Virus record (IMG/VR): IMGVR_UViG_3300017991_000077
Span: 33,476 to 97,475 of that record
Reading direction: 5' to 3' (one strand)
DNA: 64,000 nt
Source of the DNA: a virus
Shown here one piece after another: positions 1,960 to 62,967 of the stretch (positions are counted from its first letter, which is position 1; the number at the start of each line of letters is the position of its first letter). Made by a program: the position numbers and the translations under genes. The notes below the pieces were generated by a model. That model worked only from the letters and a program-made list of their open reading frames with translations, was not told the origin of the DNA and ran no database searches.

Positions 1960-4900
1960 ATGGAACCAGTTATCCACAAAATGAATTTGAAAGGGCAGTT
2001 TGAAACTTCAGACGCCACACCAACGACATCAGCTTTAGAGAATTCTATTGCAACGATGTTTTCCGGAGAAGAAGGCGTTATCAGAGTTTCGTGCAAGGTA
2101 TCTGCATATAATAAGGCTTCGTATGGTGAGGATTATTATTTTGGTTCCGAAACGACTTATATGTACAACCAACATGGTAATAACGAATTCGATCAAATAG
2201 ATTCGAGTTCAGACACCACGTATTCAGAGACGGCAACTTCAGCTTTATCTTTTTCATTGGATGATACTGATGATGTTATTTCGATGGCATATACTGGTGA
2301 AGCTGGTGAAGATTTTATTTGGGAATATGAAGCTGAAATAGAATTATTTGTTGGAAGTTTGCAAGATTGGTTGGATTTGTATTTAACCTTTCAAATATTC
2401 GATGGAAGAAGTGGAGTTGCAAATCTAGATGAAGATATTGAAGTAAATGGAACAACCGTTTCTCCTACTTTTGTTTATTATGGCGGCGATGCTGATGGAA
2501 CAAATTGGATTCCAAGAACTGGCGGACAGACTTTAACGTTAACAGCAACACCAGTTCCAACTTACAACGATGGTTCACCTTGTCTTGGAACAAATGATGA
2601 TTCGGTTAAATTTAATGATGGTGGATTTTACGATGGTACTGATAACGACGTTGCAACTGAAGACTTTGTTATTGAGGTTTTATTTAAACATCAGGCTGAT
2701 GCAGGAAGATACCTTATAAGCACTTACGATGGATCTACCGGATATATTCTTTATACAAATTCAGATAATGCACGGCTTTATATAGAAGATAGTGGTGGAA
2801 GTTCAACGCTTAATACAGGTGCTGTATTAACTCCAGGTTGTTGGTATTATTTATTAGCATATGTCAATCGGGATGAAGCAAGCGTTAATGGTAGTTTTTT
2901 CTATATTAATGGGGTTGCTGTAGGTTCCGGAAAAGATTCTTCAGCAGTTACTGGAACATTAAACACTAATGAATTTCAGCTTGGAGCTTCTTATCTAGGA
3001 TCAGCCAAATCAACTTGTAATTTAGCTTATTGTTCGATGTGGAAATATTCCGATTTGTTCTCAGCAGGTGCTCAAGGTGAAGCAGAAGCGGCTAATTTAG
3101 CGGCGAGTAGATTTGCTCAAGTATCTGGTCGTTATCCTCAAGTTTTTACGCACGATGATGTTTTAATTGATGGAGACATGGAAGCAAGTCCTATAGAGGT
3201 TATTGTTGATGGAGATTGTGAAGCTGTTGGAACAGGTGATTGGACTGCGACAGATGCTACGCTTTCAAAAGATACGACAGCTCCTTTGAATGAAGGTACC
3301 CAACATCTTAGAATAACTTCAACAGCTAATACTTTTTGGGCATCACAGACAATCTTAACAGTAGGAAAAACATATAGAGTAACTGGATCAGCTAGATCGG
3401 CTGGTAGTTCGGCAATTCCAAAAATTAATTCTGTTGGAACTGTTTGGACGGGAACAACAAGTACTGATTGGCAGGATTTTAATGAAATTTTTGTAGCTAC
3501 AGGTACTGTTATTTATTTTGGAAGTAGTAGTACACATCCTGGAATTGTAGATTTTGATAACATACAGGTACTAGAACAAGACGGGGATTGGACTGTTACC
3601 ACAGCAACCCTATCTAAAGATACAACTGCTCCATTATACGAAGGTACACAGCATTTAAGACTTACTTATTTGTCAGCTTTTAATGGATATGCTCAACAAG
3701 CAATTCAAATAGTAGGTCATAAATACCGAGTTACAGGTGTAGCTCGAAGTGACGGAACAGGAATTCCAAAAATAAGTGAGATAGGTGCTACCCATTGGAC
3801 TGGTACTACTTCCACGTCTTGGCAACCTTTTGATATAACATATGTTGCGTTAACCACAGCTCTTAGACTTCAAGGCGGAACTTTAAGTGCAGGTGTATAT
3901 GTCGAGTTTGACGATGTTACAGTTACACGTGTCGATGAGCTTCCAATAGTTGCAACAAGAGCTTTTGCAGCTTATCTAGATAAAATCGAATCAGATGGAA
4001 CAAGAAAACTTTATTACGTTGGTTCCGAATGGTTAAGGCAGTGTCATCGAAATGATGGGACATACGACATTTATGGGTATTTAGCTGAAGCTGCAAGTAC
4101 AAATCAGGTTGATTATTCAGAAGATATTGACAACGTTGCATGGACGCCAACGCAGGCAACCTTTCATGCAACTAAAATTGCTGCTCCAAATGGTGTCGAA
4201 AATGCAATAGGCATGGTTGCAAGTTCTGTCGCTGGTAATCATGCAATACAAGATAGTATCACGTCTAGCGCTGGTACTGATACCGTGTCATTTTGGGCCA
4301 AAAAAGGTAATCAAGACTGGGTGCTCGGGTATTATGGGCTAGGTGCGGCGGCTCAATGTTATTTTGATTTAGATAACGGCGTTGTTGAAGGTACTCCAGT
4401 TAATTGCATTGGATACATAGAAGATTGGGGGGATGACTGGTTCCGTTGTATTATGGTCTTTACAGGTGATGGTGCTGCCCACTCGTTTTATGTATTTTGC
4501 GCCGAAAATGACGGGGACACGTCTTTCTCTGGCGACGATTCTACAGTTTCGACATATGTATGGGGTGTTCAATACGAACAAGGAAGAGATTACGCGACTA
4601 GTTATATCCCAACTTCAGGTGGAGTTAGTACTCGACTTAAAGACCAATTAGAATTTAAGGGTGATGATGGGAATATTACTAACAACCAACAAGGCTCTAT
4701 AGTTGCTAACATTTTACATCCTGATAAAACTCCAATAGATGCCGGTTGGATATATTCATTGAGTGATGGTGCTGCTTCAGCTGATAGAATATACGGATTT
4801 ACTACCAGTTCAGAACATTATATTTGTAGTATGCTTGCTTCTGTAGGAAATGCAGGAGCATCTGCGGGTACTGTTGATGTTTTTGACGGTATAATTCATA

Positions 4901-34196: not shown

Positions 34197-34563
34197 GCCA
34201 AAGAAGCATACTCCAAACAAGCCGCGGCCAAATATGTGGGATGCGGAGGAGCCTTCAGCAAAGGCAAAATCGATGGGCAATGAAAAGCGATTATCAAAGG
34301 CTCTAGGTTTTAGGCTGACGCCAGGTTCGGGTAATACTCCTTGGGTCTCAGTAAAAGGAGACGGGGTTACTTCGGAATTTATGGTGGAATGTAAGGAAAC
34401 CAAGGGGTCTAAGATAATCGTTGGAATAGACATATTGACTAAGCTGTGCAACGAGGCGGCACGAGCAGGGAAAGACCCAGTTTTGGTACTATCTGCATAT
34501 GGAATACCGGACCCGATACCCAAGGAATGGGTCTGTTTCCCTTTAGGGGTATTTGAGGAGTAA
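34189..34563 (+). CDS. PD-(D/E)XK nuclease, Holliday-junction-resolvase-like
   Basis: 124 residues from the ATG at 34189. The fold signature is visible: GNEKRLSKALGFRLTPGSGN (helix with Glu and a Gly-Ser loop), KGDGVTSEFMVECKETKG (Asp then ExK), and a helix plus DPVLVLS strand. This matches small phage resolvase-like or VRR-type nucleases. A role in resolving branched DNA beside RecA and UvsW-like proteins is inferred. Confidence 0.65.
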   Translation: MLKPKKHTPNKPRPNMWDAEEPSAKAKSMGNEKRLSKALGFRLTPGSGNTPWVSVKGDGVTSEFMVECKETKGSKIIVGIDILTKLCNEAARAGKDPVLVLSAYGIPDPIPKEWVCFPLGVFEE

Positions 34564-55185: not shown

Positions 55186-55932
55186 TTAGGGCCATAGAAT
55201 AACATCGTAGTCTAATGATTTTGGATCTGTAGGAAGAGCATCTATTTTAACTGTCGGATTCTTAGTAAGAGCAAACGTATAATTCAATTTTGAAAACATT
55301 TCATTTATTGAGGCTATGTCCGCACCCAAATGAGCGTGAAGCTCCAGAAGAATGATAGGTCGGTATTCAGCAATAGTCTCTTTAGCGCCTTCAAAGACTC
55401 TGTGTTCTGAACCTTCTACATCTACTTTCATGAGGTGTAGATTTTTCAGATTCATATTATCGAGCTGTTTGGTATATACCAAACATTGAGATGAATCTTG
55501 AGTCTGAGTTGGTTGGAGTTGTTCTTCGTTTAACGTATGCCAGCCGCTTTCTTTTCCTAAATGTAGTATCGCGGTGGAGGTGGAGTCGCTTAAGGCTGCA
55601 TTAATGGCAGTGATGTTTGCGAATTGATTTTCTTGGATGGATCTTACAATCCATTTGAAATTAGTAGGTTCTGGCTCGAAGGCGTATATTCGGCCTTTGT
55701 TGATAAGGGTTGCTGCGAAGAGAGCAAAGTCTCCTTTACAAGAACCAACATCAAGAAAGGTCATATTCTCTAGAAGGAGGTTGCTCAGTAGTTTGAACTT
55801 AAATGTTTCGTAAGTGCCAAGAACTCTGGCGACCATTTTGTATGATTCTTCTAGGTCCAGATATACGGTATAGTTGTGGGGAGTTTTATATTTTCTGTGT
55901 TCCATGCGTCGAGTGTAACACGAAGATTTCAT
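55186..55932 (-). CDS. FkbM-family methyltransferase
   Basis: 248 residues if started at the ATG at 55932 (minus strand); 239 from the next Met. FLDVGSCKGDFALFAA is the SAM-binding loop; LHLMKVDVEGSEHRVFEGA and IILLELHAHLG are the FkbM post-motifs. FkbM-type enzymes usually O-methylate sugars or natural products. It is the only minus-strand gene, and its 5' end overlaps promoter 6. This suggests a later insertion. A role in modifying the glycan made by the cluster is inference. Confidence 0.8.
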   Translation of the reverse strand: MKSSCYTRRMEHRKYKTPHNYTVYLDLEESYKMVARVLGTYETFKFKLLSNLLLENMTFLDVGSCKGDFALFAATLINKGRIYAFEPEPTNFKWIVRSIQENQFANITAINAALSDSTSTAILHLGKESGWHTLNEEQLQPTQTQDSSQCLVYTKQLDNMNLKNLHLMKVDVEGSEHRVFEGAKETIAEYRPIILLELHAHLGADIASINEMFSKLNYTFALTKNPTVKIDALPTDPKSLDYDVILWP

Positions 55933-55955
55933 TTTAGTATTCAAAAGCTTGCCTC

Positions 55956-55983
55956 TTGACAAAACTTTTCATTATGCTATTCT
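55956..55983 (+). promoter_or_regulatory. TTGACAAAACT-class promoter 6
   Basis: TTGACA (55956-55961) in TTGACAAAACT, 16-base spacer, TATTCT (55978-55983) preceded by TG (TGCTATTCT). It drives 56054 through a leader that holds a terminator-like hairpin. Confidence 0.75.
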
Positions 55984-58982: not shown

Positions 58983-59021
58983 TCTTTAACCTATGAGTTA
59001 CAAATGAAGAGGAACAAAACA

Positions 59022-59690
59022 ATGGCAAAAGAAACGAAGAAAAAAGAAACGAAGAAAAAAGAGAAGAAAAAAGCAACGCTGACTGTCAAGATGACTTTCA
59101 CTGAAGGTCTGTTGGGGACTGCTAGTGCGAACCCAGAATTGCATGAGGAGTATATTGCATCTAAGAGCGCAGACAAGGCCAAGATGAAAGAGGAGCTGGC
59201 CAGTCTGCCAAGCGAAGAACTGATGGATAAGTCGATGACGGTCTTTAGCCGCGACCCCGCAGGAGATCCTTTCTTATTTGATTATCAGATTAAGGGCTAC
59301 CTTAAAGAGACAATCGGTGCGATGGTGGATTTTGATCCAATAGTCCTTCAAGAAAAGCCTTCAGTCAAACTGTCGAAGTATACCTACAAGCGGTACATCG
59401 ATAAGTATATCTTCGTATTCCCACGAAAGATTCCTTTGAGGATGCCCGAAGGCTCTACGGTAACGACGTGCACAAGGCCCCTCAGAGCTGAGACGATGAA
59501 AGGGGAACGGGTTGCTTTGGCGACCAGCGAAGAAGTACCGAAGGGCACGGAGTTGGAGTGTACTATCTACTGGAGGCACCCAAAGTTTGAGGAGTGTATT
59601 AGAGACGCGTTGGAATACGGAGAATGGTCCGGCATAGGCCAGTGGCGGAATTCAGGAAAAGGGCGGTTTGTTTGGGAGGAATTGTCCTAA
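59022..59690 (+). CDS. Hypothetical protein with Lys-rich N-terminus
   Basis: 222 residues from the ATG at 59022 (GAGGAAC upstream; an in-frame ATG at 59004 has no good site). The first 20 residues repeat KKKETKKKE. The body has LTVKMTFTEGLLGTASANPE, then a beta-rich C-terminus ending GQWRNSGKGRF. Such proteins occur in phage clusters without known function. Confidence 0.5.
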   Translation: MAKETKKKETKKKEKKKATLTVKMTFTEGLLGTASANPELHEEYIASKSADKAKMKEELASLPSEELMDKSMTVFSRDPAGDPFLFDYQIKGYLKETIGAMVDFDPIVLQEKPSVKLSKYTYKRYIDKYIFVFPRKIPLRMPEGSTVTTCTRPLRAETMKGERVALATSEEVPKGTELECTIYWRHPKFEECIRDALEYGEWSGIGQWRNSGKGRFVWEELS

Positions 59691-59789
59691 GACGCTAAGG
59701 CATGGTTGTGCCAGGCGAGGTAAGAGCATAGCCTGGATTGGCATTTCTCAGTAATAGTATGGCGATGAGTAGAAAGCAAAGGAATCGTT
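59691..59789. other. Non-coding spacer with hairpin and GGCATGG-type words
   Basis: Contains GCTAAGGCATGG, a 6-bp hairpin CCAGGC/GCCTGG (59711-59736) and GCAAAGGAATCG before the next start. The words look like those in the 62203-62960 repeat locus, so it may be a small relative of that locus. Confidence 0.5.
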
Positions 59790-61823
59790 ATGAAATTTAA
59801 GGAATTTAACTCGTTGTTGCAGAAGCATGTTCAGGCGATGGCAAAAGACCAACAGTATTTGTTTATGGTGGATCTCGATAAGGACACTGTTTGGGATACA
59901 TACTTGAACAGTTATCCAGAGGGAACAAACCCGATTTTTAGAAAACGTCGCGAGCATGATTGCAGTTGCTGTCGGCATTTTATTCGGGATTTAGGAAGAG
60001 TCGTTGCCATTAAAAACAGGGAAGTGATTACTATCTGGGATTTCGATACGAAGAGTGATGAGTATCAGCCCGTAGTGAATGCTCTTTCAGACCTCATAAA
60101 GTCGAGACCTATTGTGGATGTCTTCATCCCTACTACGAAGTCAATCGGGACAAAGAATAATATAGAGCTTTTGGACAGCGGGGGTGTCCTTGAGTGGAAT
60201 CATTTTTATACCCCCGTACCGAAGTCTTTGGTGACATATGGATTAAGCCAGGCCAGTACTGTTCAAGGACAAATGAGGGATGTTCGTAACGTATTCAAAA
60301 GGTCGCTTAAAGAAATCAGTATCGAGGCGACGAAGACCGTTTTAGAGCTGATTGCTCAGAAGTCTCTGTACAAGGGAGAAGAGTGGCAGTCTGTTTTGAA
60401 GCAGTTTAAAAAGCTTCAGGAGGAGTATTCGAGTATAGACAGTCGGAGTATTTCAGAACTTTATTGTTGGGAAACTTCAGTTCGAGTAGGGCCGATTATT
60501 GGCAAGATTCGAAATCATTCTATCGGAGTTTTGTTAACGGACCTTTCGGAAGGAACAGACCTTGATGCGGCCGTTAGTCGTTATGAGGCCATTGTAGCGC
60601 CTACAAATTACAAACGGCCAAAGGCTATCTTCACCAAGATGATGATTCAGTCAGCTCAAAAGACTGTCAAAGAGTTGGGTTTTGAGGCTTCTTTGGGAAG
60701 ACGGTTCGCAGTACTCGAAGACATTACAGTGCCGAATACCCTTTTCGCCAATCGCAGCGCGACTAAGATTATGACGGGCGATGTCTTTGAGGAGATGGCA
60801 GCGGAGATGCCAGATGGACCGAAGAATCTATCCAAAGTAGAAGAGATAGATATTCGGACTTTCGTCGAACAAGTGTTGCCAAAGGCTACAAGCATCTCAG
60901 CCCTTTTAGAAAACAAGCACGAGAAAAATATGGTTTCTTTGATTGCTCCAAAAGACATCGGCAGCAAGACGATGTTCAAATGGAATAATAATTTTTCTTG
61001 GGCTTATTCGGGCAATATCACGGATAGCATGAAAGAGCGCGTGAAGTCTGCCGGAGGTAAGACCGACGGAGTTCTTAGGTTCTCTATTCAGTGGAATGAC
61101 GACGCCGATACGCCAGACGATTTGGATGCGCATTGCTATGAGCCAAGAGGGAATCTTATCTATTTTAGTAATATGCGGAATCAGAATACGGGTGGACATT
61201 TGGATGTCGACATAACACACCCACATAAAGAAGTTGCTGTGGAAAATATTACGTGGCCGAGTCTACGTAGAATGGAACAAGGAAGGTATGTTTTCTTGGT
61301 ACATAACTATGCTTCACGAGGAGGTAGGGCCGGTTTTTCTGCGGAAATTGAGTTCGATGGCAATATTTATTCGTTCGAGTATCCAAGGCCTTTGAGGCAA
61401 GGTCAGAAGGTGAACGTAGCTGAAGTGCATTTTGATGGGAAAGCATTTACGCTCAAAGGGCTTTTGAAGTCTCAGCATTCTTCTAAGGAGATTTGGGGCC
61501 TTTCTTCAAACAAGTTTCATCCCGTAACGGTGGCGTCGTTCTCGCCCAATTATTGGGATAAACAAGACGAGATTGGTCACCGACACCTCTTTTTTTTCCT
61601 CGATAAATGCGAGAATCCAGAGAGCCCAAACGGCTTTTTTAATGAGTTCTTGAATCAAAATTTGATGGAACATAAGAGAGTATTCGAGGCTTTAGGGGCC
61701 AAGATGCGGGTAGACGATTCAAGCAATCAGTTATCTGGACTTGGTTTTTCAATGACGAAGAGAGCACAACTAGTAGTGAAAGTAACAGGTACTTTTGAGC
61801 GAATGCTCAAGGTAAATTTTTAA
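59790..61823 (+). CDS. Large hypothetical protein with DUF2135/YfaP-like beta domain
   Basis: 677 residues. The middle (about 430-540) has LRFSIQWNDDADTPDDLDAH, then CYEPRGNLIYFSNM and GGHLDVDITHP, which resembles DUF2135/YfaP-type beta-sandwich domains. The N-terminus has EHDCSCCRHFI, a likely metal site. Other parts are helical. The size and position among unknown genes give no clear role. No membrane segment. Confidence 0.6.
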   Translation: MKFKEFNSLLQKHVQAMAKDQQYLFMVDLDKDTVWDTYLNSYPEGTNPIFRKRREHDCSCCRHFIRDLGRVVAIKNREVITIWDFDTKSDEYQPVVNALSDLIKSRPIVDVFIPTTKSIGTKNNIELLDSGGVLEWNHFYTPVPKSLVTYGLSQASTVQGQMRDVRNVFKRSLKEISIEATKTVLELIAQKSLYKGEEWQSVLKQFKKLQEEYSSIDSRSISELYCWETSVRVGPIIGKIRNHSIGVLLTDLSEGTDLDAAVSRYEAIVAPTNYKRPKAIFTKMMIQSAQKTVKELGFEASLGRRFAVLEDITVPNTLFANRSATKIMTGDVFEEMAAEMPDGPKNLSKVEEIDIRTFVEQVLPKATSISALLENKHEKNMVSLIAPKDIGSKTMFKWNNNFSWAYSGNITDSMKERVKSAGGKTDGVLRFSIQWNDDADTPDDLDAHCYEPRGNLIYFSNMRNQNTGGHLDVDITHPHKEVAVENITWPSLRRMEQGRYVFLVHNYASRGGRAGFSAEIEFDGNIYSFEYPRPLRQGQKVNVAEVHFDGKAFTLKGLLKSQHSSKEIWGLSSNKFHPVTVASFSPNYWDKQDEIGHRHLFFFLDKCENPESPNGFFNEFLNQNLMEHKRVFEALGAKMRVDDSSNQLSGLGFSMTKRAQLVVKVTGTFERMLKVNF

Positions 61824-61833
61824 GGAGAAAACA

Positions 61834-62202
61834 ATGTTCGAAAAAGCATCGAGAAAGAAATTGCGGTTTAATTATCACGGGTCAATATCAGTAGAAGATC
61901 TGTGGGATCTCTCCGTCGAAGACCTGGATGATATGTATGGACTGCTGAGAACTGAGCAGAAGGAAACAAGCACCGAAAGTCTTTTGAAGTCGAAGAGGCT
62001 TGCGGGAACCAATCTTGATCTACGTATCAATCTTGTGAAACATGTCGTCGAGACCAAATTGCAGGAAGCCGATGAGAGAGAAAATCGAGCTATTGTGAAA
62101 CTTCAGAAAGAGAAGATCGCAGAACTTATTCAGGCAAAGAAGGACGATGGTTTGAAGGAAATGACCGTTGAAGAACTTCAAGAGAAGATGGACGAACTCT
62201 AG
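61834..62202 (+). CDS. Conserved-type small coiled-coil protein
   Basis: 122 residues, TAAGGAGAAA upstream. SVEDLWDLSVEDLDDMYGLL, then LRINLVKHVVETKLQE is a pattern seen in small phage proteins beside larger unknown genes. The C-terminal half is a Lys/Glu-rich helix. Function unknown. Confidence 0.6.
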   Translation: MFEKASRKKLRFNYHGSISVEDLWDLSVEDLDDMYGLLRTEQKETSTESLLKSKRLAGTNLDLRINLVKHVVETKLQEADERENRAIVKLQKEKIAELIQAKKDDGLKEMTVEELQEKMDEL

Positions 62203-62960
62203 CAGGGCAAAGCAAAGGCATGGGGCCGTGGTGCTGGTCATTGCAAAGGCATAGTCAAGGCGAAGGGGAGTGAAGCTACGTTATGCTCCGGTAAGGTTTT
62301 GAGAAGTTGGGTTTTGCGTTGAAATGGTTGTGTGTCGCGTTGAAATGGTTGTGTGTCGCGGAGATTAGTTCGGCTTTAGCAAAGCATAGATGAGATAAGC
62401 ATCAGTGAAGCGTAGGCAAAGCAAGGTACTATGACGTAAGGCCCAGGCGTAGAGTGGAGCTGTTTGGATTGGAACTGCAAAGGCACTGAAGAGTTGAGCA
62501 CCAGAACAGTACGGAATTGACTCGTGTCGTAAGCAAAGGCAAGGTAGAATCTGGTTTTGAGCGGCGATGGAGAAGCGGTGTGCTGACATGCGAAGGCAAT
62601 GAAATTCCTGGACTTGAGGCGTGTTGAAATGCAAAGGCATGGAAATGAACCGGAAAGCGTAGGCAGCGTTTGGAACGGCATCACTAAGGTACTGTGCTGC
62701 GAAGCATGATTCAGCAAAGGCAAAGAGATGTGAGGATACGAAATGCGATGGAATTGCGTAGACTCGAGACGCTAAGACTGTGCAGAGGCATAGAAAGGGA
62801 CGGTTAAGTGAAGGAAAGGTCGCGCTAGGTGCGGCAATGCAAAGCAAAGGCAGGACATAGTTCAGTAAGACACTGCAGAGGCGAAGTAGGTCCAAGAAGT
62901 GCTGCGGGATCGCGGGGTGAGGTGTAGACCGGTGTAGAAGTGCAAGGGCAGAAAGGAGAG
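62203..62960 (+). repeat. Gene-free locus built on recurring GCAAAGGCA motifs
   Basis: About 760 bases with no credible + strand gene. GCAAAGGCA occurs exactly at 62212, 62243, 62477, 62533, 62631, 62713 and 62844. Near copies lie at 62410 and 62657 (GCGTAGGCA), 62590 (GCGAAGGCA), 62782 (GCAGAGGCA), 62875 (GCAGAGGCG) and 62942 (GCAAGGGCA). Spacing is often 31, 56-57 or 67 bases. The + strand is purine-rich. The motif resembles a ribosome-binding or primer-like word, but the function is unknown. Confidence 0.8.
62316..62360 (+). repeat. 21-base exact tandem duplication
   Basis: GCGTTGAAATGGTTGTGTGT plus C occurs twice in a row (62316-62336, 62337-62357) followed by GCG. It lies inside the repeat locus and is another recent slippage event. 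Confidence 0.95.
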
Positions 62961-62967
62961 TATAAGA

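Follow-up and report, generated by a model that had tools for sequence, protein, structure and literature searches.

The closest described counterpart of the locus analysed here is VIPR (Viral Interference Programmable Repeat), reported in April 2026 (PMC13142463, bioRxiv 2026.04.26.720920) in the one paper naming it that our literature search on stand-alone phage RAMPs returned. As described there, a phage RAMP protein (Vipr) acts together with vrRNAs made of alternating GGY/NN repeats, by which double-stranded DNA is read at a 1-nt skip, and competing elements are repressed; VIPR is proposed as the ancestor of the CRISPR RAMP systems. The same report speaks of long flanking intergenic sequences, of pentanucleotide repeats or 'a related consensus' and of variable array architectures, with seven types in all and staggered, overlapping arrays in some of them. 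Our point of comparison is the type II system of the Escherichia phage SUSP1 (NC_028808.2), in which the genes AVU07_agp039 and agp038 are flanked by long intergenic stretches holding GGT-NN runs; going by the description in PMC13142463, we assign them as its vipr and vap1.

In this work we analysed a 64,000-nt stretch of DNA (the window), which comprises bases 33476-97475 of a virus contig of 97,475 bases. In its remainder there are genes for terminase, portal, capsid, tail sheath, tape measure and baseplate, and the virus is thus a contractile-tailed phage. Our results show that the non-coding locus at 62203-62967 is a real, strand-specific array of 5-nt repeats, which is under selection and tied to a RAMP gene. 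The repeat unit is G-H-N-N-N (H = not G), that is, one G per 5 nt, with an extra G (a six-nt step, ...AAAGGC) roughly each 26-36 nt, in about one unit in five. When an array HMM built from 54 relatives (the window excluded) was applied to this locus, the LLR of the + strand was 107.8 nats, against a maximum of 2.3 in 200 dinucleotide shuffles (z 110), while the minus strand contained no array (-4.1) and coding stretches scored at shuffle level. The Viterbi parse runs through the main array without interruption, starting at one gene's stop codon and reaching nearly to the RBS of the next, and a model-free autocorrelation of the Gs in the main region gave z values of 8.7 at lag 5, 7.3 at lag 26 and 8.2 at lag 31. 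No further arrays were found in the other 33 kb of the contig. The features are collected in Table 1.

Table 1. Features of the RAMP gene and its arrays (positions are those of the window)
Feature	Position	Strand	Basis
vipr-like gene, 228 aa, predicted stand-alone Cas7/Csm3-type RAMP	59004..59690	+	AF2, Foldseek, VIA, profiles, hhalign
Short array, 19 units, 4 six-nt steps	59694..59792	+	LLR 10.4 vs shuffle max 3.3, z 18; parse
677-aa phrog_1735 gene, between both arrays	59790..61823	+	PHROGs
122-aa phrog_2018 gene; main array begins at its stop codon	61834..62202	+	PHROGs
Main array, candidate for vrRNA (guide RNA); 144 units G-H-N-N-N of 5 nt, 26 steps of 6 nt	62202..62947	+	HMM, Viterbi parse, autocorrelation
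GCAAAGGCA phase mark 1 (six-nt step)	62212..62220	+	word count, HMM parse
GCAAAGGCA phase mark 2, 31 nt past mark 1	62243..62251	+	word count, HMM parse
21-nt tandem duplication, GCGTTGAAATGGTTGTGTGTC x2 = four units	62316..62357	+	sequence, parse
GCAAAGGCA phase mark 3	62477..62485	+	word count, HMM parse
GCAAAGGCA phase mark 4, parse crosses probable 4-nt step	62533..62541	+	word count, HMM parse
GCAAAGGCA phase mark 5	62631..62639	+	word count, HMM parse
GCAAAGGCA phase mark 6	62714..62722	+	word count, HMM parse
GCAAAGGCA phase mark 7	62844..62852	+	word count, HMM parse

The original prediction had drawn attention to this locus through a nine-letter word, said to be present in seven exact and about six near copies at clustered spacings. 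The seven exact copies of GCAAAGGCA are there, every one on the + strand of 62203-62967, and shuffles of this 765-bp region hold 0.02 copies on average and at most 1 in 2000 trials; elsewhere in the window there is one more copy, at 34258, and whole-window shuffles hold 0.45 copies on average and never more than 3. Three further copies carry one mismatch (62590, 62782 and 62942), and a count of six would need a looser rule. The word is not the repeat unit for which it had been taken: since GCAAAG followed by GC is the commonest form of the six-nt step, GCAAAGGCA is one kind of phase mark within the finer 5-nt repeat, and the marks bounding the blocks are also written GCAAAGGC. The spacings between neighbouring exact or one-mismatch copies (31, 234, 56, 57, 41, 83, 68, 62 and 98) follow from 5-nt units to which each mark adds one base, and in the relatives the preferred distances are 26/31/36/41 for one mark, 52/57/62/67 for two and 83/88/93/98 for three. 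Ahead of one GCAAAGGCA mark, at 62522-62541, a step of 4 nt (GTAA) is suggested by the parse; such steps, which the HMM forbids, may compensate six-nt steps. That the locus lacks a + strand gene was also correct, the longest + strand ORF in the region having at most 37 aa. On the opposite strand a 176-aa ORF without a Pfam match (62365-62895) lies within the array, and gene callers may annotate spurious ORFs of this kind on such arrays. The 21-nt tandem duplication suggests block duplication as a possible way in which arrays grow.

The resemblance noted between this locus and 59691-59789 holds as well, with an HMM score of 10.4 nats against a shuffle maximum of 3.3. This short array lies directly behind the RAMP gene and ends on the ATG of the following gene, with which it shares 3 bases; the main array is 2.5 kb from the RAMP gene, with the phrog_1735 and phrog_2018 genes intervening. 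We considered whether the array could be tied to this gene pair instead, and rejected it: that position is without an array in three other loci with relatives of the pair (L009, L010 and L011), so that it is the RAMP gene to which the array belongs, and both genes of the pair are probably outside the system. Neighbouring genes in the window encode MazG-like (by eye), phrog_5429 and phrog_1735 proteins. Coding in the window is almost wholly on the + strand, apart from a gene for an FkbM-family methyltransferase at 55186-55962 (-).

The predicted product of the 228-aa gene, for which an alternative start exists at 59022, folds as a Cas7/Csm3-type RAMP in the AlphaFold2 model (74 relatives; pLDDT 89.8, pTM 0.85). 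Searched against the PDB with Foldseek, the model found type VII Cas7 (E 8e-9), with type III Csm3 also among the best matches, and VIA superposed it on the best solved structures with Z 13.7 over 169 residues (4.6 A) and Z 13.6 over 158 residues (3.3 A); no non-RAMP family of note was among the fold matches listed, an absence that carries no evidential weight. Profile comparison agreed weakly and independently with the fold (type VII Cas7, E 3.8e-5; Csm4, E 0.003). Pfam and PHROGs returned no family for the protein, PADLOC and NCBIfam gave weak Cas7_IIId, Csm3 and Csm4 matches in some relatives, and among viral models a 'Cas system-associated RAMP superfamily protein' of Siphoviridae sp. ctcMb1 comes closest. 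The C-terminus carries a G-loop, GIGQWRNSGKGRF.

The link between array and gene comes from the relatives. When viral contigs were scanned for two nearby copies of GCAAAGGCA, the stretch was found in most such regions to follow directly on the stop codon of a gene whose product ends in G(I/L)GQWRNSGKGRF. The call to look for the word in other phages was answered in two ways: BLAST of the locus against phages gave no meaningful match, and the word scan did find similar non-coding regions; what is conserved in the array is the pattern only, and not the sequence. The 228-aa protein gathered 80 relatives in viral contigs and 64 in species genomes. In the relatives GC dinucleotides lie 5, 10 and 15 nt apart and then 21, 26, 31 and 36 nt apart, the G grid is coherent over more than 120 nt, and the motif is oriented forward in 383 cases and in reverse in 5. 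The array is on the strand of the gene in 126 of 129 loci with a RAMP gene; in 84 of these it starts within 150 nt downstream, 48 have one upstream, and arrays reach 328 units. As a reverse test, 120 loci were fetched by the 9-mer pattern only, and the gene was present in all 11 of those with long arrays. Eight others of the 120 had an HMM segment of 6-17 units, mostly with nearly all steps of 6 nt, and for most of these this is what coding repeats would give. GC being self-complementary, the reverse-strand matches in some relatives mostly mirror forward arrays. Every neighbour family is confined to 12 or fewer of the 220 loci, and a vap is thus not evident.

Some loci depart from the usual arrangement. 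Arrays of 157 and 114 units stand on both sides of the RAMP gene in one contig (L196 and L075), where C is strongly kept at position 2, so that the pattern scores on the reverse strand too, and in three RAMP loci (L178, L210 and L277) an upstream array is oriented opposite to the gene. A 17-unit array-like segment (L063, 9593-9682, -) has no RAMP gene in the fetched stretch. RAMP relatives were also found in a Lokiarchaeota bin (L228, without a detectable array) and in a Saccharibacteria bin (L216); these could be bin contamination or viruses of those hosts.

Selection keeps the G grid. Seven pairs of related arrays, 75-95% identical, could be aligned, and in them differences amount to 1.8% of sites for the unit G and 2.6% for the extra G, against 9-12% at each of the other four unit positions.

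How does this locus compare with VIPR? As in the systems described in PMC13142463, there is a phage-encoded stand-alone RAMP of ~20-25 kDa with a G-loop, there are long intergenic tandem 5-nt arrays by the gene in which fixed G-containing and variable positions alternate, and the occurrence is in phages and proviruses. That the protein is a stand-alone phage RAMP with RRM core and G-loop is supported by the AF2 model, by Foldseek and VIA, by the alignment with SUSP1 Vipr and by the virion genes on the contig, and the intergenic 5-nt repeats by the RAMP gene are of the VIPR kind in a wide sense (G-H-NNN with six-nt steps). In contrast to the form presented there, each unit has one fixed G (G-H-NNN) and not GGY/NN, an extra G recurs each 26-36 nt, such six-nt steps being absent from the main text of the report, and a continuous array of 144 units lies two genes off vipr, with no vap. 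SUSP1 Vipr and the window family align in hhalign (E 2.4e-6, probability 89) and have the G-loop GxGxWR...GRF in common (GVGDWRPRFGRF in SUSP1 Vipr). The vrRNAs of SUSP1 are separate, ~100 nt long, with 9-16 repeats per run on a strict GGT/GGC-NN grid without six-nt steps, a structured tail and vap1, whereas in the window 144 units form one run with 26 six-nt steps and a degenerate base before the G. The array ends at the RBS of the next gene, and its last 148 nt show no more folding than shuffled sequence, in contrast to the invariable structured 3' tail of type II; the vap gene for a DNA-binding protein adjacent in type II was found neither among the window neighbours nor in the 220 loci, and the array HMM had no match on SUSP1. 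Hammerhead ribozymes, which separate vrRNAs in another VIPR type, were not seen, there being no Rfam match in the window. The window form may already be among the seven types of PMC13142463 as described there, and the locus is best filed as a VIPR of a form differing from the tested type.

With the type III (Csm3/Cas7) and type VII (Cas7) backbones the protein shares the fold over its whole length (VIA Z 12-13.7, 3.3-4.6 A rmsd), and weak sequence similarity in the C-terminal 50 residues. Unlike CRISPR, with its ~30-nt repeats and spacers, the putative guide repeats are 5 nt long; no CRISPR repeats or spacers and, among the annotated genes, no Cas10/Cas14, Cas5 or Cas6 were found nearby.

We propose, with a probability of about 0.85, that this is a VIPR-type locus of a contractile-tailed phage, in which the RAMP-coated array RNA would serve as a gapped guide against rival DNA. 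Vipr (59004-59690) would coat the transcript of the main array, and also that of the short array, with each 5-nt unit occupied by one subunit that holds on to the conserved G. The variable bases between the Gs would be displayed as a gapped guide; the double-stranded DNA that it addresses would be that of competing phages or prophages, and their transcription would be blocked. The six-nt step, found about every 5-6 units, delimits blocks of 26-36 nt and probably shifts the register or the spacing against the target. Transcription of the array and its binding by the RAMP into an RNP are suggested by what PMC13142463 describes for VIPR, and guide function, DNA target and repression are likewise modelled on that description. 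At the locus itself, searches for promoters, terminators, Rfam families, tRNAs and a global RNA fold gave nothing beyond chance, no promoter being recognised ahead of the main array, and in 16 related loci Rfam matched just a tRNA. The array RNA folds no better than shuffles, which fits the expectation for an unpaired guide.

Targets were sought by matching 344 arrays (19,151 units) to both strands of 7.46 Mb of fetched phage and host DNA with the arrays masked, varying the variable positions, the skip (0-3 bases) and the extra bases at the six-nt step; the controls had their units in reversed or permuted order. The top-ranked decoding uses positions 4 and 5, a 1-nt skip and +3 at each six-nt step. 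It gave three ten-unit matches, one of them of low complexity, against 0-1 in ten permutations and 0 in reversed order; its nine-unit matches numbered 7 against 0-1 in the first set and 8 against 2-5 in the enlarged set. Other decodings were at noise level. Eight-unit matches were not enriched at 4,611 start sites (5, against 2-7 permuted), so purine-rich composition may explain the matches of the top decoding. In one of them, units 76-85 of the L225 array (3232-3756) match 20/20 at 3966-4005 of L249 and at 9117 of L358, a site formed by the RBS and start of the vipr gene of another phage; this is a possible natural target, statistically unproven, and a lead only. The second ten-unit match, of L242 units 76-85 with L287 at 9406, also falls on a gene start, AAAGGAG...ATG. 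A single guide from the window read with the top decoding had 0 matches in the viral contigs and in its own contig, an uninformative outcome.

What else might such an array be? Four roles had been put forward in the original prediction, and an array of protein binding sites came closest, as the array is probably protein-bound, but as RNA and by the RAMP. An RNA decoy is possible, but accounts for neither the hypervariable bases nor the RAMP linkage. A graveyard of promoter- or RBS-like units does not agree with a strict 5-nt grid in which G alone is clearly selected, or with promoter-like and terminator-like matches at shuffle level. An origin finds no support: the GC-skew proposed as a check is high (0.367) with no sign change at the locus, and the array travels with the RAMP gene and not with replication genes. 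This last point also weighs against the wider idea of a double-stranded DNA element, with helically phased sites at which a protein of replication, partition or packaging would bind. A mean step of 5.17 bp, a 31-nt period close to three helical turns and the presence of arrays in the early or recombination modules of some relatives would suit it; we consider it very unlikely in view of the strong strand polarity relative to the RAMP gene, the lack of a palindromic site and the crRNA that RAMP proteins bind in solved structures.

An RNA bound by the RAMP without any guide function, acting as a scaffold, a sponge or an autoregulatory leader that titrates or protects the protein, would let the bases between the Gs drift, and it is consistent with Gs that alone are clearly constrained, with positions 2-5 varying about equally between related arrays and with decoding searches that found no target. 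It seems to us improbable, if less so than a DNA element, since the repeats of SUSP1 Vipr, a protein sharing the fold and the G-loop, serve as programmable guides according to the description in PMC13142463, since arrays that reach 328 units would be long leaders, and since the main array of the window is kept 2.5 kb from the gene. Least credible of all is a non-functional, low-complexity filler that arose by slippage from a purine-rich seed; the 21-nt duplication within the array and the lack of sequence similarity to other phages in BLAST could be read in this way, but a 5-nt grid kept over 745 nt through divergence, Gs whose neighbours vary about five times as much and a near-perfect co-occurrence with one gene family already contradict it.

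Within the VIPR reading, a more tentative proposal is that these phages may use a distinct VIPR code, with one fixed G and three to four information bases per unit, six-nt steps that set off blocks of ~31 nt for six RAMP subunits, and arrays of more than 100 units read continuously; we hold this to be possible, yet on balance doubtful. If true, many overlapping guides would be drawn from one RNA, and the recognition rule would differ from the GGY/NN rule with its 1-nt skip, the top candidate adding 3 target bases per six-nt step. The repeat geometry here departs in any case from the tested VIPR form, and the locus provides a computable signature for such arrays. With 355 relatives in one viral collection and 64 in species genomes, many phages and prophages of gut, rumen and environmental origin probably have guide-RNA arrays in what are now unannotated 'non-coding' stretches.
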